NCBI RefSeq assembly: GCF_902498785.1
Contig: NZ_LR701494.1
Location: 1,255,105-1,319,104, forward strand
Length of the DNA: 64,000 nucleotides
Source: Sphingomonas sp. EC-HK361
GTDB lineage: Bacteria; Pseudomonadota; Alphaproteobacteria; Sphingomonadales; Sphingomonadaceae
Reading direction: 5' to 3'
Shown piece after piece: positions 5,212-62,493 of this stretch. How positions within the stretch are numbered: the stretch's first letter is position 1; each line of letters opens with the position of its first letter. Under the pieces are notes generated by a model. The model saw nothing but the letters and a program-made list of their open reading frames with translations, made no database searches and was not told the origin of the DNA. The translations under genes were made by a program, and so were the position numbers.

Positions 5212-5618
5212 CCCTCCCCGCCCGGCCGCATCACCGCGCGGCGATCGATCGTTGACGGCGGCATCGGCAGCCATGTCATGCGCATCAGCGGCATCGTGCT
5301 CGCATCGATCCGCACGCGCACCGTCACGAGCTGCGCGGCCTCGGTCACGTCGGTGACGACCGCATAGCGACCGAATTCGGGCAGCGCGGTCAGCTCGCGC
5401 GTCACGCTCGCCCTCGCCAGCGTCTGGCGTTCCGCGTCCGAAAGCCCCGCGACCGTCGCGCGTGCGGCGTCGTTTGCGAGTTGCTGCGCGCTGTGGGCGA
5501 GCAGGAAATACTGGCCGTAGCCGAGCATCCCCAGAAGGACGAGCGCGAGCAGCGGGAACAGCAGCGCGAATTCGATGACGGCAGTGCCGCGTCGATCGTG
5601 CGGCAGGCGGGGCAGCAT
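5208..5618 (-). CDS. TadE-like pseudopilin family protein
   Basis: 136 residues. The segment 'DRRGTAVIEFALLFPLLALVLLG' is the classic TadE motif: RG.A.VEFAL followed by one transmembrane helix, with Glu at the pseudopilin cleavage position. The periplasmic part follows. It is first in a two-gene operon with the TadG-like gene (4-base overlap). Known TadE proteins are minor pseudopilins in Flp pilus assembly; whether that applies here depends on a full tad locus elsewhere. Confidence 0.82.
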   Translation of the reverse strand: MLPRLPHDRRGTAVIEFALLFPLLALVLLGMLGYGQYFLLAHSAQQLANDAARATVAGLSDAERQTLARASVTRELTALPEFGRYAVVTDVTEAAQLVTVRVRIDASTMPLMRMTWLPMPPSTIDRRAVMRPGGEG

Positions 5619-5762
5619 GGCGGAACTCCTTCGCCGCGCAGGCTAAGCCCGGCGACCGTTCCACCGCGCGCACGAAAAACGGCGCGAACCTGCGTGATTC
5701 ACGCCGTTTTCTGTCGATTCCCCGCCCGGATTAACCCCGAAACGGAGCGCAATTACGCAAAA

Positions 5763-6488
5763 TCAGCGCGCCCGCGGGCCACCAAAGGGGATCGGCGGCG
5801 CGCGCCGGTCCCGCCGCGGCAGCTGCGCCTGATAGGCATGGCCGCAATGATCGACGCAGTACGGGAAGCCCGGATTCACCTTTTCGCCGCAGAAATGGAA
5901 ATCGGGCTCGCCGGGGTGGCCGAGCGGCCACTTGCAGATCCGGTCGTTGAGATCGAGCAGCGAAGTCTTGTCCGCCATCTCCGGCGACGGCTTGGCAGGG
6001 ACCAGACGCCGCGGCGGCGCGGGCGTGCTCGGCGGCTGCTGTTCGCCCGGCGACTGGCGCAGGAACCCGCCCGGCCCGATCGAGCGCAGGATCGGCTGCT
6101 GCTTGACCGGCGGCATGCCGTCCGCAGCGGAAGCAGGAGGCGCAGGGGCGGCCGGAACCGCGGCGCGCGGCTCGGGGCGCGGCAGCGGCGCCTTCGCGGC
6201 GGGCGGGGCGACCGGTATGGGCTTGGCGACCGGCGCCGTAACGCGCGCCGGCGCGGCGGGTGCCGCAGGCTTTTCCGCCACCGGCTTGGCAACTTTCGCG
6301 ACCGGCGCGGCTTTTTCCGTATCCTTGGGGGTGACGGGCGAGGGGCGCGACTGCAGGCCAAGGCGGTGCGCCTTGCCGATCACCGCGTTACGGCTCACCC
6401 CGCCGAGCGCCTCGGCGATCTGCGAGGCGGTCTGGCCCTTTTCCCACATCGTCTTGAGCGTATCGATCCGCTCGTCGGTCCACGACAT
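5763..6488 (-). CDS. gcrA: GcrA cell-cycle regulator
   Basis: 241 residues. The N-terminal helix-turn-helix begins 'MSWTDERIDTLKTMW' and continues with 'QIAEALGGVSRNAVIGKAHR', the GcrA DNA-binding signature. A long Pro/Ala-rich linker (about residues 50-165) leads to the conserved C-terminal Cys/His block ('CKWPLGHPGEPDFHFCG', 'PYCVDHCGHAY'). GcrA partners with sigma-70 to activate cell-cycle promoters methylated by CcrM in Caulobacter; the family is essentially restricted to alphaproteobacteria. The linker is longer than in many orthologues, explaining the size. Confidence 0.95.
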   Translation of the reverse strand: MSWTDERIDTLKTMWEKGQTASQIAEALGGVSRNAVIGKAHRLGLQSRPSPVTPKDTEKAAPVAKVAKPVAEKPAAPAAPARVTAPVAKPIPVAPPAAKAPLPRPEPRAAVPAAPAPPASAADGMPPVKQQPILRSIGPGGFLRQSPGEQQPPSTPAPPRRLVPAKPSPEMADKTSLLDLNDRICKWPLGHPGEPDFHFCGEKVNPGFPYCVDHCGHAYQAQLPRRDRRAPPIPFGGPRAR

Positions 6489-32530: not shown

Positions 32531-33040
32531 TCACTCGAAGGCATCATCCCCGAAACGCACTCTCAACTTGATCGCAACGCTATTCGCATATCTCCGCTGA
32601 CGCCATTCGGTAGGGCTGTGGTAGATGCCAATGGCCTTCCAGTAGTCGTTCGATAATCTGAGAGCAGAGAGGAAGATCCAGCGCGCGGCCTGCACATTGA
32701 AGCACGGATCGCTTTTGAGCCAGCCTCTCACCTGCTCCGGTGGTCGCCCGGTCAGTCTCGAGAGCTTCGGCACCCAGAAGCTGTTGACCTGGAGTGGTCC
32801 AAGATCATGGGTGCCGTTGCCGTTCGGCACTTGCGCCCCGATCCAGCCCCCTTCTTGGTCGCGCAGTCCCCAAAGGGTTTTCTCAAGCCAGGCGCGACCT
32901 CCCGCTGCCTGCCGGATGCATTGCCCGAGGCGCGCCTCGTGATCGGCCGACGGTGTACCTCTGGCGTCTGCATGGCCTGCTGATGCCAGGAGGATCGCGA
33001 GCGGTAGCAAGCGCCGGGCTGGTTTTAGATCAACGGTCAT
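32531..33040 (-). CDS. VirB1-like lytic transglycosylase
   Basis: 169 residues. A signal peptide ends near 'AGHADA'. Catalytic Glu63 is in 'RDQEGGW', with 'HDLGPLQVNSFWVPKL' as the SLT substrate motif. Enzymes of this kind open peptidoglycan for conjugation machinery. The start 'MTVDLKPA' overlaps the 3' end of traA by 11 bases, making it the last gene of the transfer operon. Confidence 0.85.
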   Translation of the reverse strand: MTVDLKPARRLLPLAILLASAGHADARGTPSADHEARLGQCIRQAAGGRAWLEKTLWGLRDQEGGWIGAQVPNGNGTHDLGPLQVNSFWVPKLSRLTGRPPEQVRGWLKSDPCFNVQAARWIFLSALRLSNDYWKAIGIYHSPTEWRQRRYANSVAIKLRVRFGDDAFE

Positions 33041-36008
33041 GCCCGCCTCCGTGATCCCGAGCGGGGGCGTGCTGAGGCTCGGGTGGCGGCTGTTGGGCTG
33101 AGGACGGCTGCTGCGGCCCCTGCTCGCGGTCGTCTCCCCTGCCCGAACTCCGCTCGAGCAGAGAGATAATCCACCGATCGAGGAAGCTCGCTGCCGATTG
33201 CGCCCGCCCCGCGATATAGGAAGAAAGGCCGTTAGCCCTGGCCACTTCCGGCTGTGTTTGGGCCGTCGAGAGACGGTCCTTGCGGGCCTGCCGCTCGACG
33301 CGCTGTTCGTCGCGCAGCCGATCCCAGCGCTCCCCATGGAGCGCGGTGCGCCCTTTCACGCTGTCCTTCTCGATCCGACCCAACCCCTGGAGTGAGGATG
33401 TCTTCTCGCCCGACCGGAGGGTCAGTTTTTCTACGAGCCGCTCGCGGTCCTCGGTCCAGAGACTCGCACCGAACCGGGCGCGGGTGATCGCTGTGTAGTA
33501 ATTCTGACCGGTCACCAACGGCGAGTTCACCGGCGCGAGAACATAGACTCGATCGTAGGTCTTGGACTGCGCTGAGTAGACGGTCTCCCCATAGCCATGG
33601 TCCCAGTTCTTGTGGCGGGAGAGGTCGATCTCCTGCGCCTTCCCGTCCCGATCCCAGCGGATCGTAGCGATCATGCCGTCGAGCCGTTCGACCGTTCCGC
33701 GCTCGGCATTCTTCAGTCCGAGTTCCTTGTTGACCAGACGCCACTGGATCCGGTCGCCCTCGGCGAGGTCGCGCTTCTCGTCCTTGAAAACGTTGATCTG
33801 CGACGCTCGGCCAAGGCGAGGATCCCACTGGATGGTCCGCCCATGCTCATCGACGATGTTGACCATCTGCCGGCCACGAGCATCGCGCCCGACGCCCACC
33901 ACCTTATATTCGGCATCCCGTGCGATGCCGAGGCCGGCATTGTCACGCGAGAACACCACCACCTGCCCACGCGAGTAGAAGCGCGCAAAATGCTTCTCCT
34001 GATCGGTCATGCCCGAGGGCGACAGGATCGAGAGCCGCGCATCCTCGGCGGCGACGGCGCCCTCCACCTTCAGGGCTTCGCGCACTTTGGTGTTGACGAT
34101 CAGTCGGGTCGCGTTTTCGAGGACGAGGATGTTGGTCCTGTCCCGGGTTTCGGGGGGTAGCCGCGTCCAGTCGGCGACCAGCGCGACCGCGAGCTTCTCC
34201 GCGCTGTCGCCGCTGATCACCTTGTCGAGCGCGCCGAGCGATCCATCATAGTTCTGGAGCCGCGCCAGGCGGACCGCCTGGGTGATCTTGTCAGCCTCCT
34301 GTCGTACCGTCTCCCGCAGTTCCGCCTTGGGTAGGCCGAGGCGCTGCATCAGCCAGAAGGGCTTGCCCTGCTCGATCGCCCCCGTCTGGCGGGTGTCGCC
34401 GAGCAGGATCAGCCGCGCGCCGGTGGTCCGGCTGATCTCGAGCAGGCGGACCGCCTGCCGATTGCCGAGCTGCCCGGCCTCATCGACGACGAGGACATGG
34501 CCGTCGTCGAGTTTGGCGCCGCCAGAGGCGAGCAGGCTGGCGACCGTGCGCGATTCGATGTCCGCCTTCTTGCCGAGTTCGCCGGCGGCTGATGAGGTGG
34601 GAGCGAGCGCGATGAGGGTCGCTTCCTCCCCCGCTGCCTCGCGAAGCGCGCCGATGATCGTCGACTTGCCTGAGCCCGCGACACCATGGACGCCGACCAC
34701 CCGGTCGGAGGAAAGCCCCAGATGCAGAAGAGCCGTCCGTTGGTCAGGCTTCAGTCCGTGCGCGATCCCCGCATCACGCAGGCTCTCGACCGAGGCGAGC
34801 GGCTTCGCGTCTCCCAGCGCCAAAGCCAGATGGTCCGCAAGGGCCATTTCAAGGCGCGCGGTCTTGCGTGACGTCCGGCCACGTGTGTGGACTTCGTCGC
34901 CGGTCGGATGCCGCGTTTCGAGGAGCTTGGCGCGCGCCTGGTGCTCCTCGACGATCGGCCTGACGTCCGACAGCCGAACTTCGCCCACATGGGAGGCCAG
35001 AGCCGTCTGCAGCAACCGGCCGAGATTGTTGACGGCTTCCTTCCCTTCCGACTGCCGGAGCCCGAAGAGCATCGCCCGGGCCGCGACCGGCTGGGGCACC
35101 TCGATGTCGCGCGCGCCCGCTTTCTCGGCATCGGCCCGCGTGTCATGCACGGCTTCGGCATGCTTTCCGAGGCGACCTTCCCAGCTCTCGTGGAGAGCTT
35201 CGAGGGACATTTTCTGCTTGGGCCCGCGCGTCACATAGAAGGAATGCTGACGCGCAGCCTGCCCGGTCAGCCCGTGCTCCTTCGCATGGGCGTCGATCTG
35301 CTCGGCGCGCTGCGACATGTCGATGATCAGAGCCTTGGGGACACCCCGGATCTCGAACAGCCCCTTGCGCGGGTCGAACTCGACATCGTAGCCGCGCTCG
35401 CGCAGGAGATGCGCGAGTTCGTTGCGATAGACCTGACCAGCTGTCATCTGCTCGGCAAACATGGCGCGGGTTTCGAGACTGACTTTCTTCTCACCGTCCC
35501 GCTCGTCGGTGATGTTCATGACGACGACATGGGTGTGGAGGTGGGGATCGAGTTCGCGTGAGGCATGCTCGGTGAAGCGCGCGTAGATCAGCCGCCCGGT
35601 CGTCTTCTCGGTGACCTCGCCATCGACGCGGTGGCGCATCGTGGCATGTTCCTCGAGATAGGAGAGCGCGACGCTAACGGCCTGCTCATGCGCCTCGACG
35701 ATCCGCTGATCACCGGCGACCAGCGCCATGATCGACACCGACTTGGGGGCGTTGACAGCGAAATCCCAACCCGGATGGTGCTGGATTTCTCCGTTGGCCC
35801 GGCGCCGGCCCAATTGCTGGTCCTCGACCTTTCCGGCTAGCAGTTCCTTGAACATGACCGGATCGACCTTGCCATCCAGGCCGAGTTCAGCGGCGATCTT
35901 GCCACCCCATTCGGAATGCTCGTCGGCGCCTTTGGTGTAATAGTCGCCGACCGTGTAATAGCGAGCGATATTGGCGGGCTTGCCCTTTAGGCGGATGGGA
36001 TTGATCAT
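33030..36008 (-). CDS. traA: MobF-family conjugative relaxase-helicase (TraA/TrwC-like)
   Basis: 992 residues. The N-terminal TrwC relaxase domain has tandem Tyr pairs (Y17/Y18, Y23/Y24) as candidate nicking residues and the His triad at H156, H158 and H160 ('LDPHLHTH'), plus 'HHPGWDFAVNAPKS'. From about residue 420 there is a RecD-like helicase: Walker A 'GVAGSGKST', Walker B 'VLVVDEAGQLG' and the late 'VYSAQSKTYDRVYVL' motif. It would nick oriT, stay bound to the strand, and unwind it. Its start overlaps the traD stop by 4 bases. The Pro/Gln/His-rich tail is probably disordered. Confidence 0.93.
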   Translation of the reverse strand: MINPIRLKGKPANIARYYTVGDYYTKGADEHSEWGGKIAAELGLDGKVDPVMFKELLAGKVEDQQLGRRRANGEIQHHPGWDFAVNAPKSVSIMALVAGDQRIVEAHEQAVSVALSYLEEHATMRHRVDGEVTEKTTGRLIYARFTEHASRELDPHLHTHVVVMNITDERDGEKKVSLETRAMFAEQMTAGQVYRNELAHLLRERGYDVEFDPRKGLFEIRGVPKALIIDMSQRAEQIDAHAKEHGLTGQAARQHSFYVTRGPKQKMSLEALHESWEGRLGKHAEAVHDTRADAEKAGARDIEVPQPVAARAMLFGLRQSEGKEAVNNLGRLLQTALASHVGEVRLSDVRPIVEEHQARAKLLETRHPTGDEVHTRGRTSRKTARLEMALADHLALALGDAKPLASVESLRDAGIAHGLKPDQRTALLHLGLSSDRVVGVHGVAGSGKSTIIGALREAAGEEATLIALAPTSSAAGELGKKADIESRTVASLLASGGAKLDDGHVLVVDEAGQLGNRQAVRLLEISRTTGARLILLGDTRQTGAIEQGKPFWLMQRLGLPKAELRETVRQEADKITQAVRLARLQNYDGSLGALDKVISGDSAEKLAVALVADWTRLPPETRDRTNILVLENATRLIVNTKVREALKVEGAVAAEDARLSILSPSGMTDQEKHFARFYSRGQVVVFSRDNAGLGIARDAEYKVVGVGRDARGRQMVNIVDEHGRTIQWDPRLGRASQINVFKDEKRDLAEGDRIQWRLVNKELGLKNAERGTVERLDGMIATIRWDRDGKAQEIDLSRHKNWDHGYGETVYSAQSKTYDRVYVLAPVNSPLVTGQNYYTAITRARFGASLWTEDRERLVEKLTLRSGEKTSSLQGLGRIEKDSVKGRTALHGERWDRLRDEQRVERQARKDRLSTAQTQPEVARANGLSSYIAGRAQSAASFLDRWIISLLERSSGRGDDREQGPQQPSSAQQPPPEPQHAPARDHGGGHDR

Positions 36009-55285: not shown

Positions 55286-56863
55286 TCAGGCCGCTTGATC
55301 CAGCGAAAGCGAGATCGTCGTCCTGTCGCCGGAGATGGTCAGGCTGCGGTTGTCGGGAATGAGCCACTGAACGTGCTCGAAGACCGCGTCGCGCAATTGG
55401 GCGAGAAGCGCCTCGTCCTCACCCAGCAGCAACAGGTTGGCGAGATTTCGCGCTTCATGCTCGAACGCGAGCGATTGCGTATCCCAGCTATCGTGCCCGC
55501 AATCGTCAGAATAGCAGAACAAACTGGCGTGCATCAGGTCGGCAAGCGCGTGCGGCTGCACATTGGCCTTGCCGTCAAAGAGGATGGTCGCCTCGTCGAG
55601 CGTCCAGCAGGCATTGTTGCAGACCAGCATGTCCGTGGGCACGCGGTAGATGGTTGGTTCTGCCGGCGACGGGCCGCCGGACCGCAGAAGGATTTCGGCG
55701 GAGATATTCTCGACCGGTCCGGACTCAAATTCTTCGGGCAGGGCGATATCGTCGGCATAGCGATGAAGGACGCCATCGCGCTGCACGGTGAAACTGCAGG
55801 ACAGGAGACGCGGCAATTCGTCATACCAGCGATAGTCCTCGAAATCGCGGTTCTCGTGAACCAGGGGACCACCGAGCGGTGTTTCGTTCGCAAGTGCGCG
55901 GGCAAGCGCTTGCTCGATGTCGGGTTCGTGGTCGGACATGATGATCATAGGGCCCGATCGAATGGCCGCGCCCTGGTATCGGTTGGACGTGTCGGCAATG
56001 TTCGGCGTCCAGGCATTGAGCCAGCGGTCGGCTTCGGGAAGAGCAATCCCAAGGTCGCGGGCACGCGCCCAGGCCTCGTAGGAGAGCCGATGAGATTTCT
56101 CGCGGCAGATGGCGCGGTAAAGCGCGATTTCGGCCGCTTCCCTGAGCCGGCACAGCGCGTCGTTCTCGACCATTTCCTTGCGCGCGGGGAGCACGAGCTG
56201 GAGCGCCGGCGCATCGACGATATCGACCCGCACTCGCCAGTTAAGAGGCTTTTCGATTTCGCTCAGGGCGGGAAGTCTGGAAGCGACCGTCACGCCGTGG
56301 AAATTGATCCGGGGGGTATGGACTGCCTCCATGGTACCGTCATGGAAGATGCCGATACGACAGCCTTCCCATTCCTCGATCTGGTCGGCGCCGGCCAGAA
56401 AGTCCTCGCGCGGAAGCTGCGCGCCCTCGAAATGAACGGGGAGCGGGAAATATTGGGCCGCGAGGCGCAGCGCCGACCCAAGCTGCTCATCCCAGGCGGG
56501 CGGCAGCATGATCTGGATCTCGGTGCCGTGCACGATCCCGCACGACTGGATCGCGAGCGGCACACCCCCTTCCCAGCCGTCAGCCGGGATATGGACCGCC
56601 CAACCCCGTCCCGCCGCCTTCGACCATGAGCGGACAACCACATCCCGGCCGGCGAGGCTGAATACCCCCATGCCGGCGGGATCCTCGCGCGTCCGAATAT
56701 CCTCCTGCCAGCCCGAATCGCCGAGGCTCAGGAGGTTGGCCGGATCGTCGATCCCGGAGCCGTCATCGTAGATGGACAGTGCGGTGCCGGCTGGGAGATT
56801 GTAAACCGCGACATGGATCGCGCGGGCACCGGCGCGACGGCTATTCTGGAAAAGTTCGTTATG
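55286..56863 (-). pseudogene. HSP90-type GHKL ATPase, 3' part (split by transposon)
   Basis: 526 codons remain open from the element junction to the stop at 55286. The junction-proximal end reads 'NELFQNSRRAGA' (N-box with Glu/Asn), then 'IYDDGSGIDDPANLLSLGDSG' (ATP lid start) and 'DPAGMGVFSLAGRDV', the GHKL ATP-binding motifs. It lacks its first ~31 codons, found at 60308-60400 on the far side of the transposon in the same orientation. An internal ATG ('MGVFSLAG') could still start translation but would lose the ATP site. Intact relatives are HSP90-like island proteins of unknown role. Confidence 0.85.
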
Positions 56864-56902
56864 TTATTTGGAATTCGTGGCTTGGCGTGAGAAGCTAAGA
56901 CC

Positions 56903-56976
56903 TACGAGTCACGCGTTTTCTTGAGGTTTTCTGGGCCTTTTGCCGCAGCTCGGCCGGGGTCGGACCGGACGGGGTA
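56903..56976 (+). repeat. Left terminal inverted repeat of the transposon
   Basis: 74 bases beginning TACGAGTCACGCG and ending GGACGGGGTA; complement of 60220-60293 with one mismatch (C versus T within 'cagctcgg'/'cagcttgg'). Confidence 0.93.
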
Positions 56977-56981
56977 CTCAC

Positions 56982-58046
56982 ATGACCGCTGTGAATATCC
57001 GATGGCAACTTTTTCCGCTTTCCTTCGGGCATCCCCAGGGGAAAGAGTGGCTCGATATTCAGCACATGCTCGGGTTGGCTTTCAATACCGTGGAGGCCTA
57101 TGGCCGCGGTCTCGAGCAGTTCCTACGATGGTGCGAGGACAACGAGGTTGCGGCGATCTCTGCAACCCGGCCCGACATTGCCAACTACGTGGGTCATCTG
57201 CGGATGCTTCCCGGCGCCAGGATGTCGGTACAGGACGCAACGCAATCTACATCCGGCCTTTCCAGCGCCACGCTGCAACAGCGGCTTACAGCCATTCGTC
57301 TGTTCTTCGACTACCTCGTTGAAGAGGGCATCCGTACGAACAATCCGGTTGGACGTGGCCGGTTTGTCCCGAACAGGCCGTTCAGTTCAAAGCGCGACCG
57401 CGGTCTGATCCGGCGGCACAAGCGTTTACCGTGGATCCCTTCGGATGAAGAATGGCAGCGGTTTCTCCTGTGCGCCAAAGGTGAACCTATCCGTAATCGA
57501 TGCATGCTGGCGATCGCATATGATGCCGCGCTGCGACGCGAGGAACTTTGCGCCATTGAGACGCGCGACATCGATCCGGCACATCGTCTGATCCTGATCC
57601 GGGGCGAAACCAGCAAGAGCAACAGAGACCGTATTGTTCCCTACTCGGAAACCGCCGGTGTTTTGTTTTCCGCCTATCTTGAGCATCGACGTCGGGTGGG
57701 CCGTGATCGCGGCAGGCTCTTCCTTTCTGAATCGCGTCGAAATTACGGAAAGCCCATCACGCTGTGGACCTGGTCAAAGGTGATCAGGCGCATCGCGGTC
57801 GCGGCCGACCTCGATAAGTTTTCGACCCACACATTGCGCCATCTTTGTCTGACCGATCTGGCTCGCGTAGGTTGGGACATACATGAGATCGCCCAGCTCG
57901 CCGGACACCGGAACCTCGCATCCACACAGCAGTATATCCACCTCTCTGGCAGGGATCTCTCCAGAAAACTGGCCGGCTCCATGGAGCAGATCCACGCATG
58001 GCGAACGCGCATGTTGGTCGAAAGCAGCCCGGAGCGCGGCCAATGA
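56982..58046 (+). CDS. Tyrosine recombinase 1 (TnpA/XerC-like)
   Basis: 354 residues from the ATG at 56982, just inside the left repeat. N-terminal SAM-like core-binding domain (about 20-120). Catalytic residues: Arg185 ('AALRREEL'), Lys212, His283 and Arg286 ('HTLRHL'), His309 ('LAGHR') and Tyr318 ('TQQYIHLS'). The full set is present, so the enzyme should be active. It overlaps the next recombinase (ATGA). Length and pairing match Tn554 TnpA. Confidence 0.93.
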   Translation: MTAVNIRWQLFPLSFGHPQGKEWLDIQHMLGLAFNTVEAYGRGLEQFLRWCEDNEVAAISATRPDIANYVGHLRMLPGARMSVQDATQSTSGLSSATLQQRLTAIRLFFDYLVEEGIRTNNPVGRGRFVPNRPFSSKRDRGLIRRHKRLPWIPSDEEWQRFLLCAKGEPIRNRCMLAIAYDAALRREELCAIETRDIDPAHRLILIRGETSKSNRDRIVPYSETAGVLFSAYLEHRRRVGRDRGRLFLSESRRNYGKPITLWTWSKVIRRIAVAADLDKFSTHTLRHLCLTDLARVGWDIHEIAQLAGHRNLASTQQYIHLSGRDLSRKLAGSMEQIHAWRTRMLVESSPERGQ

Positions 58047-60304
58047 ATCCGCAGACAATGGACGATCCCGAGCCCGCTACGCGGCATTGGCCGAATCCAC
58101 TCGCAACGGCCGAATATGATCGATCGCCGAAGCTCACCGTGGGAGAGCGTTCAGCCATTCAAGCGTGGCTGAAAAAGCGCGTGCTGGGCCAATGGAGCCG
58201 CTTTGAATATCGCACGCAGGAGCGGGAGCAGCTCCTACGTCTGATGAAACCAATCGAAGACGCGCTCGCTATCATTGGATCGGAGGCGGCGGCCCCAAAC
58301 GATGCAATGATGGTGCTCCTGAGAGAGTGCCTCTTGTTGAATCGTACATATTGGGGCTGGAAGGAACAGCATTGGGCAAAAGTGCTCGGCCGCACAACGC
58401 ACGATTTCTTCGACAGAAATAAGAGGAAGGTAGCTACTGGCGTCCGTGTGGACATCGCAGCGATCGCCTATCTCCACAACTGGTTCACCAGCTATTCGAC
58501 GTTGGCCTCAACACACAGGAAATCGTTGGCTAACCGAATTTTTGGTAGCGCGTCGGTGGCATCTGCGATCGAGCGGCTTACGACGCCTCTCGTCCGGTGG
58601 GGCTATCGTATCGATCCGAAATACATGAAGTTGTTCGTGTCATCGGTTCTGCTCGTGAATCGAAGCCCGCGCCTCGAAGATTTGAATCCGGAGATTCTGG
58701 AATTTTATCGCGCCGAGGGATCAAACGTGGAGCGGCGCTATTATTACGCGATTTCTAAAGTCTTGGCCAATCAAGGCATCCTTGAACAGCCGCTCGAGCG
58801 TGCGCCGCCGAGAACGAAACAAATAGAAAGCATACACATCGGTGTGGCAGACGAATGGTGCGGTTGGATTGAACGCTGGACGCAAACGACAACTATCGAA
58901 ACCCGTCGAGGTCATCGAACCACACTCTATAAGGTTGGGCGCTGGCTGGCTGCCCATCATCCTGAGATCGTATCGCCCGCACAATGGACGCGCACAGTTG
59001 CGGCAGAATTCGTATCAGCGATGGCCAAATTGCGCGTCGGTCAATATGTGGCACCGGCAGCGCCGCACCCGCGGGCGGGTGAAGCGGTGAAAGCAAGCAC
59101 GATCGCAGGCTTGATTTGCCAGGTCCGTGGCTTTTTCTATGATTGTCAGGAATGGGGTTGGATTGAACGCTCCTTCGATCCGGGCCGCAGTTTTGCGATA
59201 CCGCAAAGTATCCGCGCTAAACTCGGCCCCAAGCCCCGAGTGATTGCCGATGATCTGTGGGCGCGTCTGCTTTGGGCCGGCCTCAATCTCGAGAAGTCCG
59301 ATGTTCCTCGCGCTAACAGCAGCGGCCTGCTTTTCGACGTGGAATATATACGCGCGATAGCGGTCGTGTGGCTGTTCGCAGCGCTGAGAAACAACGAAAT
59401 CCGTCGGTTGCGGCTTGGTTGCATCCGCTGGCAGCCCATGGATTCCGGCAAGGGCCCGCCGATCTGTTTGTTGGACGTTCCCGATCACAAAACCGGAAAT
59501 TGCTATACCAAGCCTGTTGACCCGGCTGTCGGCGAGGCGATTGAAGCATGGCAGGCCATACGTCCGGTCCAACCGGCATACCCTGATCCTAAAACTGGCG
59601 ACCTTGTCCAATTCCTGTTCCAATTTCGAGCCATCCCGATGGCCAACGGCTTCATAAATGTCCGACTGATTCCAATTCTATGTAGAAAGGCCGGCATCCC
59701 CGATCATGATGTTCGGGGCAAACTCACCAGTCATCGCGCACGGGCCACCATTGCCAGCCAGCTGTTCAACAGTGAAGAACCGATGACGCTCTCGGAACTT
59801 CAGGAGTGGCTTGGCCATAGGTCGCCGCATTCGACGCAGCATTACGTGAAGATCACGCCGACGAAGCTGGCCAAGGCGTATACCGACGCAGGGTATTTCG
59901 AGCGCAACGCTCGCGTGGTCAAAGTTTTGATCGACCGCGATCAGATGAAAAATCCGCAGGAGGGTGTCCCCTGGCTTCACTATGATCTCGGACATGGTTG
60001 GTGCAGCTTCGAGTTCTTCGACAGGTGCCCGCATCGGATGGCATGCGCGCGATGCGACTTCTACATTCCAAAAGCATCGTCGCGAGGACAGCTCCTGGAA
60101 GCAAAGGACAACGTCGATCACTTCCTGAAGGCAATCCCTGTCACTGCCGAAGAGCAACAAGCCGCCGATGGCGATCGCATTGCTATCGATCGTTTGCTGG
60201 CGCGTCTCGATGATGAACCTACCCCGTCCGGTCCGACCCCGGCCAAGCTGCGGCAAAAGGCCCAGAAAACCTCAAGAAAACGCGTGACTCGTAATTCCAC
60301 ATAA
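58043..60304 (+). CDS. Tyrosine recombinase 2 (large, TnpB-like)
   Basis: 753 residues, long for the family. The first ~380 residues are an extended N-terminal region. The catalytic domain has Arg449 ('FAALRNNEIRRL'), Lys483 ('DHKTGN'), His564/Arg567 ('SHRARAT'), His592 ('WLGHRS') and Tyr601 ('TQHYVK'). A Cys cluster follows ('DRCPHRMACARCDFY'), probably zinc-binding and typical of TnpB-type recombinases. The last ~25 codons run through the right inverted repeat, and the stop falls just beyond it, so the final residues come from the flank. Confidence 0.92.
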   Translation: MNPQTMDDPEPATRHWPNPLATAEYDRSPKLTVGERSAIQAWLKKRVLGQWSRFEYRTQEREQLLRLMKPIEDALAIIGSEAAAPNDAMMVLLRECLLLNRTYWGWKEQHWAKVLGRTTHDFFDRNKRKVATGVRVDIAAIAYLHNWFTSYSTLASTHRKSLANRIFGSASVASAIERLTTPLVRWGYRIDPKYMKLFVSSVLLVNRSPRLEDLNPEILEFYRAEGSNVERRYYYAISKVLANQGILEQPLERAPPRTKQIESIHIGVADEWCGWIERWTQTTTIETRRGHRTTLYKVGRWLAAHHPEIVSPAQWTRTVAAEFVSAMAKLRVGQYVAPAAPHPRAGEAVKASTIAGLICQVRGFFYDCQEWGWIERSFDPGRSFAIPQSIRAKLGPKPRVIADDLWARLLWAGLNLEKSDVPRANSSGLLFDVEYIRAIAVVWLFAALRNNEIRRLRLGCIRWQPMDSGKGPPICLLDVPDHKTGNCYTKPVDPAVGEAIEAWQAIRPVQPAYPDPKTGDLVQFLFQFRAIPMANGFINVRLIPILCRKAGIPDHDVRGKLTSHRARATIASQLFNSEEPMTLSELQEWLGHRSPHSTQHYVKITPTKLAKAYTDAGYFERNARVVKVLIDRDQMKNPQEGVPWLHYDLGHGWCSFEFFDRCPHRMACARCDFYIPKASSRGQLLEAKDNVDHFLKAIPVTAEEQQAADGDRIAIDRLLARLDDEPTPSGPTPAKLRQKAQKTSRKRVTRNST
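60220..60293 (-). repeat. Right terminal inverted repeat of the transposon
   Basis: Mirror of 56903-56976. It also encodes the basic C-terminal tail of recombinase 2 ('AKLRQKAQKTSRKRV'). Confidence 0.93.
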
Positions 60305-60307
60305 CTG

Positions 60308-60400
60308 AAGCACGTCGCCGAGCGTGCCGTTGAACAGGCGCGAGACCTTGGTGATGAGCGACTGGCCGACCTCGGGCCGGATGATGGCGGGAAAGGACAT
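60308..60400 (-). pseudogene. HSP90-type GHKL ATPase, 5' part
   Basis: 31 codons from the ATG at 60400: 'MSFPAIIRPEVGQSLITKVS' then 'RLFNGTLGDVL'. This is the expected N-terminal helix before the N-box of the fragment at 55286-56863. The frame then runs eleven foreign codons into the transposon repeat and stops at 60272. Confidence 0.85.
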
Positions 60401-60449
60401 GGGATGCGACTCCTGTCTGGCGGAGACCAATTCCCCGCCACATGAGCCC

Positions 60450-60770
60450 TCATCCCCCTCCCCTTTGGATCACGGCGGGATGGAACGGATCGGTCCAGTC
60501 GATGTGGTCGATGATCCAGTCGGGAACGAAATCCCAGTCGAAGCAGAGTGGATAATCGTTCTGGACCTCGCGCCAGGCAGCCTCGACGGCATCGGCCCAG
60601 CCAATCACCGTTAGTCGCAGCGCCGCGGTTCCTAGCGCATCGAACGACTTGCCGATCGCGGGAGCCAAGCCGATCGCATCGGGATCGGTGATCGGCCTGG
60701 TGCGTAAGGTCAGAACTGCCTCCCAGAGGCAGGCGGCGGTCTCGAGACTGGCTTGGGAATATTGAGCCAT
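60450..60770 (-). CDS. Hypothetical island protein
   Basis: 106 residues starting 'MAQYSQASLETAACLWEAV'. Helical, with a Trp/Asp-rich end 'FDWDFVPDWIIDHIDWTDPF'. No known family recognised. Upstream neighbour of the interrupted ATPase gene and read in the same direction. Confidence 0.65.
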   Translation of the reverse strand: MAQYSQASLETAACLWEAVLTLRTRPITDPDAIGLAPAIGKSFDALGTAALRLTVIGWADAVEAAWREVQNDYPLCFDWDFVPDWIIDHIDWTDPFHPAVIQRGGG

Positions 60771-60787
60771 GACGGGTCCTTTCAATG

Positions 60788-61249
60788 TCAGGCGGCGCGC
60801 AGGTCGCAGCCCTGGTAGAGTCCGAGATCGGCTGCCATCAGCGTGTCGATGCCGGGCGCGAACCGGTCGAAGGCTGCGTTCAGATCGGCGACGGCGACGC
60901 GGTAGCTGGCCTCGCCGGGATCGAAGTCCAGGGCGAGCATCAGGGGGGGCAACCGAGCGGTCATCTCGGGAAAGACGGTGTGGATGATGAGCGCCTCGAT
61001 TCGCCGCGCGACCAGGTTGAGCCGCGCGGCAAGGCCCAGGGGCGTGGCCAACTCACGTTCATACCAGGTAGCGGGCGCTACGACGTCGGCGATGCGGGTC
61101 GAGGGCACCCGGCCATTGCCGATCTGGGCCTGGATGACGACGCAGCGCGGGCGCCGCCGGGCCGCGACCTCGGTGAGCGGCACGAGGGCGCGATAGTGGT
61201 AGGTCGAGGCGGTGCCCGGGGTGCGGGACCGAGAGACGATGACGTCCAT
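60788..61249 (-). CDS. Hypothetical island protein
   Basis: 153 residues from 'MDVIVSRSRTPGTASTYHYR'. Contains 'RCVVIQAQIGNGRVPSTRIADVV' and a long helical C-terminal half. No motif recognised. Its start is the ATG at 61249, preceded by 'aaagga'; a longer frame upstream has poor composition. Confidence 0.65.
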   Translation of the reverse strand: MDVIVSRSRTPGTASTYHYRALVPLTEVAARRRPRCVVIQAQIGNGRVPSTRIADVVAPATWYERELATPLGLAARLNLVARRIEALIIHTVFPEMTARLPPLMLALDFDPGEASYRVAVADLNAAFDRFAPGIDTLMAADLGLYQGCDLRAA

Positions 61250-61359
61250 TGGTTGTTCCTTTGATGGTGGAGGCTTGGGGCTGCGCGTTCGGCAGCAGGG
61301 AGATCGCCGAGCGAAATTCGCCCGACGCCCCTTCAAAAAAAGTCCTCCCCTCCGGCTCG

Positions 61360-62493
61360 TTAGCGGGACCGTTCGGACTTCACGGCGAGGAGGTCTGCGA
61401 ACCGGGCCTGGACCGCGGCAGCGTCAGGGAAATGGTCAGGAAGGCCGTGATGGGCCAGGATCGGCGCGCGGGCCTTCGCGATCAGCGAGGCCTCGGCCAT
61501 GCTCGGCATGCGGGGTGGCCAGCCCTTCACATAGCGCAACTGCGGGGGCATGGCCGCTTCGAGCGCCCTGCGTTCCTGGGCTCGCAGTTTGGCACGCGCG
61601 ACCTCGTGAAGACGTGCGGCCGACAGCCATCGAGGCGAAACATCGGCGAGCCATCGTTGAGGCTGAAAGGAGAAGGTCGAGTCCGCCTCGATCGCCACCA
61701 GATGGCGGTAGAGATCGAAGTTGCCAGGGGCGGCAGCGGAGGCAGCTAGGTCGTGCGCCGATGCAAGCACGCAGAAAGCACAGGACAGCCGGGTTGTCCG
61801 GTATTGGACATAGGCTTCGTGCAACGGCAGCCCGTGGCGCTTATGAATGCCGAACACATCGTTGGCACTCCAGTCGACGGCCGGATGCCAGCTGAGCATG
61901 CGCGTGCCGGCGGCGTTGCCCGGCTTTGCGAAGCGTTCGTCGGCACGGGAGACCGGCGTGGCACGACGGCTCGGGCTTTCATCGCGGCGCAGGCCGATGA
62001 CCGAAACGATGGTTTCGCCCCGATAGCGGCGTGCGAGGTCAGGGCCGATCACCTGGACTTTCAGCTCGGACGTGCAGAAGCGCAGCGATGCCGAGGACCA
62101 GGGTCCGATGAGATTGTAGGTTTCGAGCGCCTCGTAGCGGCGCTTGCCCGACAGGAAGCGTTGCTCCCAGCGGCTCACCATGTCGCCTGCCGATCGGCTG
62201 ACCACCAGCAAGGGCAGCCCAAGCCTGTCGGCGATTGCTGCGACCATCGCCGGGGTCGAGCGCCATTCCGCCCGGCCGAGGTCAGCGTGAATCGCGATCC
62301 GGCGATCACGCGGATGGCCCAGGGCGTTGAGCAGCGCGAGTCCGGCATGGGCCGAGGCGGTGGAATCCTTGCCGCCCGAGAGATTGAAGGCGAACCAGGC
62401 TCCGCGCCGCGCGGCGGCTATGACCCTATCGTCGATCGCAGGCAAAGGATCATCAGGCGCGGCAAGCAAGCCGCGCGCAAGAGCTGCGCCCAT
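61360..62493 (-). CDS. PP-loop ATPase, PAPS-reductase-like (second copy)
   Basis: 377 residues. The canonical PP-loop 'NLSGGKDSTAS' is at 39-44, followed by 'IHADLGRAEW', as in PAPS reductases. Cys140 ('RFCTSELK') and Cys238-x-x-Cys241 ('SCAFCVLA') repeat the Cys pattern of the copy at 53.2-54.1 kb. 'GLRRDESPSR' is a further family motif. The start is the ATG at 62493 with 'aggag' eight bases upstream; a GTG five codons earlier is less likely. Substrate unknown; not adjacent to cysteine-synthesis genes, so assimilation of sulfate is unlikely. Confidence 0.83.
   Translation of the reverse strand: MGAALARGLLAAPDDPLPAIDDRVIAAARRGAWFAFNLSGGKDSTASAHAGLALLNALGHPRDRRIAIHADLGRAEWRSTPAMVAAIADRLGLPLLVVSRSAGDMVSRWEQRFLSGKRRYEALETYNLIGPWSSASLRFCTSELKVQVIGPDLARRYRGETIVSVIGLRRDESPSRRATPVSRADERFAKPGNAAGTRMLSWHPAVDWSANDVFGIHKRHGLPLHEAYVQYRTTRLSCAFCVLASAHDLAASAAAPGNFDLYRHLVAIEADSTFSFQPQRWLADVSPRWLSAARLHEVARAKLRAQERRALEAAMPPQLRYVKGWPPRMPSMAEASLIAKARAPILAHHGLPDHFPDAAAVQARFADLLAVKSERSR

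Follow-up and report, generated by a model that had tools for sequence, protein, structure and literature searches.

A two-gene tyrosine recombinase transposon from Sphingomonas that appears to insert site-specifically and to carry a fixed hexamer at one end

The window analysed here, a stretch of 64,000 nucleotides from Sphingomonas sp. EC-HK361 (contig NZ_LR701494.1, positions 1,255,105 to 1,319,104 of the forward strand; coordinates below are window positions), contains a gene interrupted by an insert of 3447 bp that encodes two overlapping tyrosine recombinases, TnpA and TnpB. Judged by sequence comparison, the insert appears to be a real two-gene site-specific transposon, and its insertion rule is the notable part: a hexamer conserved within the clade seems to be carried at one end, while the hexamer of the target is kept at the other. 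This rule looks new, and no description of the terminal cores or of the fixed hexamer was found in the literature searched, most subscription papers lying outside that search.

The limits of the element were obtained by comparison with an empty sister site (locus L065, in genome G165 of the same family), where the bases equivalent to 56857 and 60305 are directly joined. The window flanks matched this locus contiguously by blastn, over 596 nt at 96.5% identity ending at 60305 and over 658 nt at 92.7% ending at 56857. The insert occupies positions 56858-60304 and is made up of the hexamer GTTATG and the 3441 bp that extend from one core to the other, a result that corrects the span of 56855..60310 given in the first-pass annotation. 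The comparison of empty and filled sites that it had proposed gave exact boundaries and a retained target hexamer: no bases were lost or duplicated upon insertion at this locus, and CTGAAG stands undamaged at the right end. The features of the element and of the interrupted gene are the following:

56858..56863, plus strand: hexamer GTTATG carried at the left end, imported with the element and absent from the empty site L065
56864..56875, plus strand: left core TTATTTGGAATT, the tnpA-side recombinase core; motif TTANNTGGAAT at the tnpA side of relatives
56876..56902, no strand: left-end spacer between core and arm, 27 nt; core plus spacer (39 nt) has 1 difference from L015
56903..56976, plus strand: left inverted arm, 74 nt, a putative inverted copy of the tnpB 3' end
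56982..58046, plus strand: tnpA, 354-aa tyrosine recombinase (Pfam PF00589, alignment)
58043..60304, plus strand: tnpB, 753-aa tyrosine recombinase with a long N-terminal part and a C-terminal Cys cluster (Pfam PF00589, alignment)
60220..60293, minus strand: right inverted arm, 74 nt, within the tnpB coding sequence and holding most of the PTPxGPTP stretch
60293..60304, minus strand: right core AATTCCACATAA, reading TTATGTGGAATT on the minus strand and containing the last tnpB codons and the stop
60305..60310, no strand: target hexamer CTGAAG, host-gene sequence kept at the right end and directly adjoining the left flank in L065
55286..56857, minus strand: interrupted host gene, 3' part; relatives annotated 'ATP-binding protein'
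60305..60400, minus strand: interrupted host gene, 5' part, from the flank match to the empty site L065

The ends of the element are an inverted pair of 12-bp cores, TTATTTGGAATT on the left and AATTCCACATAA on the right, and cores of this type recur in relatives. With at most 1 mismatch, the motif TTANNTGGAAT was present at the tnpA side in 21 of 22 loci (L042 being the one without it), a search that also permits chance matches elsewhere in the loci. It stands 49-225 bp ahead of an annotated or translated tnpA in 16 of those 21; in the other five, L037, L038, L040, L046 and L049, tnpA is broken or unannotated. Hexamers of the type NNTANG adjoin the left core in most of the relatives listed.

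The interrupted gene encodes an ATP-binding protein, by annotation in relatives, which we take to be of the GHKL type from its ELFQNSRRAGA motif. The host protein occurs in 24 of 298 family genomes (E <= 1e-30) and on 92 plasmid records, and one relative (L066) has the same codons at the insertion point, CTTCAG on the gene strand. A scan of genome contigs for the element returned two distinct loci. One of them, from Sphingobium phenoxybenzoativorans SC_3 (L016), is 99.96% identical to the window over 5201 bases (56000-61200), with TnpB 100% identical; the other, from a Sphingomonas metagenome-assembled genome (L015), holds an element of 3441 bp like that of the window, aligned with 0 gaps and 3094/3441 identical positions. 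The L015 element lies in the same codon as that of the window, and the two host genes are 45.8% identical in protein (520 aligned residues); the simplest reading is that of independent insertions into the same codon. Its hexamers are GCTATG on the left and GTTGAG on the right, and the right one restores the reading DVLNELLQN, relatives L070 and L071 reading DVLNEL there. Gene orientation relative to the host gene is identical in the window, the SC_3 copy and L015.

Relatives inserted at other targets, and in either orientation, show the same product structure. Plasmid pROB01 of Rhodococcus opacus harbours four copies of 3489 bp core to core, two per orientation relative to the flanks, all with TATTAG as left hexamer and TGGCCA as right hexamer, and the empty site on R. 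jostii pRHL1 reads TTGTTCT-TGGCCA-CGGTGATC, with TGGCCA alone. The palindromic sequence TGGCCA would explain the two orientations seen in pROB01. A third target is an ISL3 transposase in Rhodococcus, for which L121 is empty and has the hexamer GGATCA. Loci L014 and L123 have TGATAG at the tnpB side and, at the tnpA side, GAATCA, one base from the empty L121 allele; L122 is inserted the opposite way round and likewise has TGATAG at the tnpB end, its other end not being found. In all three loci the carried hexamer TGATAG adjoins a TTACGTGG core. Since the carrier core is here at the tnpB side, the rule appears to follow core type and not gene order, TTACGTGG marking the carrier end and TTATGTGG or TTCTGTGG the target side. 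Terminal cores may have been exchanged between ends in this group. The inner sequences of the three loci seem to keep their gene ends although the carrier core is at the tnpB side.

In elements of the umuC/rulB type (L041, L116 and L119), the right hexamer gives LYGD, LYGD and LYDD, respectively, and with the left one (AGTAAG or ATTAAG) a stop is read. The Klebsiella-type element L009 has the left hexamer TATATG as against TCAGCA in the empty umuC of L094, where only the left junction was seen; its right end was sought and not found. Altogether, three targets with empty alleles and four codon-restoration cases agree with a fixed-hexamer rule, and the target hexamer was at the tnpB side in 6 of the 10 elements compared and at the tnpA side in one (L014). 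The carried hexamer had T at position 3 in 19/20 and G at position 6 in 20/20 selected elements, a conservation in line with the proposed inheritance of the carried hexamer with the element. This selection excludes L013 (close to L008), L014 (carrier on the other side), L040 (broken), L037, L038, L114 and L115, as well as L122 and L123, which were fetched later. Of the 9 right (target) hexamers listed, 7 also had G at position 6; this set includes L049 and L114 and excludes L014.

Several observations weigh against this reading of the insertions. Neither the circle nor movement was seen, so that a one-strand exchange is inferred from its products. Empty alleles were fetched for three targets alone, the remaining cases being read from codons, some by way of generally known motifs, and the other 3 of the 10 elements compared were uninformative (L011 and L049 weakly consistent, L114 giving no reading). 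The carrier end is at the tnpB side in L014, L123 and L122; tnpB is broken in L011 and L014, and L049 may not be intact. The R. opacus copies may have multiplied by duplication and not by transposition. Finally, the carried and target hexamers begin with the same letter in 7 of 8 elements, that is, in all but the window element, which may reflect a homology requirement or, in some elements, a one-base uncertainty of the exchange edge.

The two genes of the element overlap by 4 nt, and the first-pass description of them as overlapping tyrosine recombinase genes of 354 and 753 residues, the second with a Cys cluster, was upheld. Both products match the phage-integrase catalytic domain PF00589 (Pfam; TnpA E 6.8e-33, TnpB E 4.8e-8); NCBIfam matches were to Xer-, integron- and invertase-type models alone, every one under its cut-off, and a PDB profile search gave no match. 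In alignments of 14 sequences each, with identities to the window proteins of 40-92% for TnpA and 32-93% for TnpB, the residues R185, K212, H283, R286, H309 and Y318 of TnpA and R449, K483, H564, R567, H592 and Y601 of TnpB were invariant, as were C654, C662, C668 and C671 of the TnpB cluster. The listed R, K, H and Y residues would be the catalytic ones, as in tyrosine recombinases generally. No third gene was found in the 3447-bp insert beyond small overlapping open reading frames (ORFs), and none of the 11 elements with both cores measured has a third recombinase gene listed between its cores (forward-strand ORFs of at least 90 aa). Eight of these 11 measure 3275-3490 bp core to core and come from Alphaproteobacteria, Actinobacteria and one contig of a viral collection; the other three hold extra DNA 3' of tnpB. 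The expectation that the two-recombinase layout would prove general is thus borne out, by 8/11 elements of 3.3-3.5 kb with no third gene, from Actinobacteria and Proteobacteria.

The mirrored repeats that had first drawn attention to this locus, 74 bases with one mismatch, are real: the arms at 56903-56976 and 60220-60293 are complementary at 73/74 positions, and the longest inverted pair with at most 1 mismatch in 60 order-1 Markov sequences modelled on 55500-62000 was of 21 nt. They had been taken for the ends of the element, and in fact are subterminal, the left one starting 45 bp inside the insert and the right one ending 11 bp inside, with the cores and the hexamer lying outside them. Among 25 loci compared with themselves (four best inverted pairs per locus; several loci being copies from one record), long arms around the gene pair were found only in L015. 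Inverted pairs in L042 and L040 do not enclose tnpB, and a 28-nt pair (89%) that encloses the genes in L014 is taken as the ends of the host ISL3 element. The arms are known only from the window, the near-identical SC_3 locus and L015, whose element is 90% identical, and so they appear to be a quirk of one lineage and not a feature of the class. The sequence PTPxGPTP, which the inner part of the right arm encodes, also occurs in arm-less relatives such as L012 and L010, for which reason we infer that the right arm is ancestral and that the left arm is an inverted duplication of the tnpB 3' end, placed ahead of tnpA.

Between the window and L015, two arm positions have changed alike in both arms; further differences are one in the right arm of the window alone and an edge position. 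In total, differences amount to 3/74 in the left arm, 4/74 in the right arm, 101/1065 in tnpA and 238/2177 in the rest of tnpB. Because the arms changed in step and L015, 10% diverged, also has perfect arms, their identity says nothing on recency, and the earlier suggestion of recent movement from near-perfect repeats has to be given up. From the right arm to the stop (28 codons) there are 0 synonymous and 3 nonsynonymous changes, and the other 726 codons have 164 synonymous and 52 nonsynonymous codon changes; windows of 25 codons have a mean of 5.7 synonymous changes, and 4/701 have none. The concerted changes and the lack of synonymous changes in 28 codons suggest conversion between the arms and some role at the DNA level. 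The arms would be kept alike by conversion or inversion, perhaps under a constraint on the DNA itself, and could be extra binding sites for the recombinases. The case for such a constraint is mixed, since 544 of the 3146 74-nt windows of the element have 3 differences or fewer, which makes the low divergence of the arms unexceptional, and the synonymous lack, which alone stands out, comes from one element pair. Low nucleotide divergence was dropped as evidence of arm constraint on the same count, those 544 windows being equally low or lower.

Published systems were compared from excerpts of the papers describing them, among which PMC5385486, PMC8138268 and PMC5424326 were also used. Pairs of a short and a long recombinase that are related to Tn554 and lack TnpC were described in 2012 (PMC3414803, Van Houdt et al.), and one of our relatives, L041, fits an integron-like element in rulB (PMC4542609), so the proposal of an undescribed minimal class does not stand. 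The Famint36 and Famint41 pairs of PMC3414803 resemble those studied here in having adjacent short (~350 aa) and long (611-828 aa) recombinases, no TnpC and a location on plasmids; section 10 of that paper gives no end sequences or insertion rule for TnpC-less pairs. In our searches, the TnpB matches in Famint41 records were weak, with E 9e-4 for pREL1, E 3e-5 for Arthrobacter FB24 plasmid 1 and E 2e-3 for pNOCA01; pRHL2 gave one 37% partial match and one weak match, and pNL1 had no TnpB match at 0.01. Equating the clade with Famint41 was dropped, as its records match weakly or by one 37% partial match. Because the records of the PMC3414803 pairs match TnpB weakly, partially or not at all, the clade is taken to lie near Famint36/41 but to be probably distinct from them.

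With Tn554, as described in PMC10214605, the element shares a short and a long recombinase gene, adjacent and with complete catalytic residues, and site-specific insertion without target duplication (seen against L065, and in L015 at the same codon). The imperfect inverted repeats that the same source reports at the termini of Tn554 are a further likeness, and they contradict the first-pass statement that Tn554 lacks inverted ends. Two defining features differ. Tn554 depends on TnpC, and the window element has no tnpC, its tnpB ending inside the right core; Tn554 relays a 6-bp flank from left to right (PMC10214605), whereas here the target hexamer is on the right and a conserved hexamer on the left, and the end products do not place the donor left hexamer at the new right junction. 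Membership in Tn554 was rejected on these two features, the distinction being drawn from the published description of Tn554. Strand-biased circularizing integrative elements (SE) have four core genes, intA, tfp, intB and srap, against two here; in them the intA end receives the target hexamer and the opposite end the spacer (PMC10214605), the reverse of the present arrangement, in which the carried hexamer is fixed; a 6-bp spacer between inverted cores is nevertheless common to both, here derived from 12-bp cores each bordered by a hexamer. RIT elements likewise have only recombinase genes between inverted repeats, in ~3.5 kb (PMC3414803, PMC10214605), but these are three overlapping genes, ritA, ritB and ritC, within terminal repeats of ~34 bp, whereas our element has two genes and a terminal repeat that is the 12-bp core, its long arms being subterminal and confined to one lineage. 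Integron-like elements (ILEs) in Pseudomonas rulB are described in PMC4542609, which cites a 4.3-kb avrPpiA1 insertion in rulB (Arnold 2001). L041, on a plasmid of P. syringae pv. pisi PP1, measures 4238 bp core to core, contains an annotated type III effector gene and is 44% (TnpA) and 36% (TnpB) identical to the window; it fits that insertion in size and place and is a candidate match (PMC4542609). Its effector gene is at 5381-6211 of the locus, as cargo between tnpB and the right core. The ILEs FH1, FH4 and FH5 are set apart by their description, which gives them three recombinase ORFs and reports a GAT repeat of 3 bp (PMC4542609).

We consider it probable that the element is a site-specific, circle-mediated transposon moved by its own tyrosine recombinase pair, with exchange fixed on one strand. 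It would pass through a circle with the junction AATTCCACATAA-GTTATG-TTATTTGGAATT, an Xer-like core dyad with a 6-bp spacer to which TnpA and TnpB would bind. Exchange would always be fixed at the same hexamer edge, most simply by one-strand exchange followed by replication; the carried hexamer would travel permanently with one end, the target hexamer would remain at the opposite one, and reversal of the same cut would leave an exact empty site. For SE elements, circle formation has been modelled as exchange of the top strand (PMC10214605). The short and long recombinase pair, the 6-bp spacer and the absence of target duplication, all as in SE and Tn554, would also suit a relay of the kind described for them, with the hexamer changing at each jump: the circle would take up the hexamer to the left of the tnpA/intA end, the target hexamer would go there and the brought hexamer to the opposite end. 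Such a relay is nonetheless improbable, given that the tnpB end holds the target hexamer in the window, R. opacus, L015, L041, L116 and L119, the reverse of the SE rule, and the tnpA end does so in the L014 group only. Its mirror image predicts changing carrier hexamers, and these were alike within groups across different targets, TATTAG standing in 4/4 R. opacus copies. We regard as still more remote, and indeed barely credible, that the window copy derives by deletion from a three-gene element, either a RIT or one like Tn554 with tnpC, even though many Tn554-related actinobacterial elements have a TnpC gene (PMC3414803). Eight of 11 elements share the same size of 3275-3490 bp and the same kind of cores with no third gene, holding besides the pair smaller ORFs only, and tnpB of the window ends inside the right core.

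Two further alternatives concern the arms. That they are the functional ends of a new class of transposon, as in DDE insertion sequences or RIT, would agree with their near-perfect state in the window and L015 and with a coding copy devoid of synonymous changes, yet it is very unlikely: the insertion boundaries lie outside them, no such arms surround the gene pair among the four best inverted pairs of each of the 24 other loci, the core motif is at the tnpA side in 21/22 loci, and the right arm codes for part of TnpB and is in part common to relatives without arms. The first-pass annotation had named two findings that would count against its own proposal; a deletion derivative was not borne out, and the absence of end repeats from other copies was. 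Unlikely, though less so than any of the preceding alternatives, is that the arms act as an inversion switch by which the two genes flip while the outer ends stay fixed, or else are a functionless relic. The changes in step in both arms would suit a switch, and the carrier core at the tnpB side in L014, L123 and L122 implies that gene order relative to the cores has changed in evolution; against it, the window, the SC_3 copy and L015 share one orientation with no flipped copy among the three, and in L014 the inner sequence by each core resembles, by eye, the same gene end as in L012, so that a clean flip of the gene block is not evident in that locus. Returning to the fixed-hexamer transposon, we put forward tentatively, and with some doubt, a wider reading in which the whole two-gene clade of Actinobacteria and Proteobacteria would enter and leave by the same single-strand exchange, with a heritable hexamer and reversible insertion, and in which the Sphingomonad lineage would have recruited an inverted copy of its right end as a second recombinase-binding arm whose identity is kept by ongoing conversion.

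TnpB relatives were found by tblastn on 603 of 72,556 plasmid records, 411 of them covering at least 80% of the query; all were below 60% identity, and many came from enterobacteria. No TnpB relative was found in 50,697 phage records; in viral contigs, a search with a single sequence returned none and a subsequent one with a profile from alignment A1 detected 7 loci. In whole-genome searches, 1 of 385 class genomes and 3 of 398 phylum genomes matched at E <= 1e-20 (G001 counted in each), and 17 of 298 family genomes matched at E <= 0.001, with a full-length match in G001 alone; these searches score few candidates per genome, and the low counts may reflect sensitivity. The relatives fetched for study are a hand-picked subset of the 603 plasmid records. 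Neighbouring pairs of recombinase genes are annotated in fetched records of Streptomyces, Rhodococcus, Paraburkholderia, Skermanella, Pseudochrobactrum, Paracoccus, Acetobacter (with a short first gene), Pseudomonas, Raoultella, Klebsiella, E. coli and Pantoea; in a Citrobacter record tnpB alone is annotated, and one Streptomyces record is without annotation. Broken copies include L011 and L014 (both in tnpB) and L040. For the Skermanella copy, a near search for an unoccupied site matched only the copy itself.

For a group of mobile elements that is as yet poorly described, the present analysis defines the ends exactly and supplies a target rule and a predicted junction. The group resembles Tn554 and SE in its kind of recombinase pair and spacer but has the target hexamer on the opposite side, and this natural comparison makes it directly testable which of the strands undergoes exchange and whether a third protein (TnpC or Srap) sets this. 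The group also offers a compact model for Xer-like transposition, with two genes and both orientations at a palindromic hexamer.

Some minor observations concern the surroundings of these elements. The enterobacterial plasmid copies L009 and L048 lie within umuC or next to umuD; 1892 plasmid records match the L009 left flank, and 24 of the 30 matches listed fall in a gene annotated as Y-family polymerase or DNA polymerase IV. Genome G001 has 52% of the sampled 31-letter words of the window, and its contig C48 encodes a paralogue of the host protein, 47% identical, in an open frame of 574 aa. The window itself encodes a TrwC-type relaxase with a helicase domain (33030-36008, minus strand), because of which the neighbourhood may include a conjugative or mobilizable element, and GyrB-, UvrC- and YdbH-like proteins are also encoded in it.

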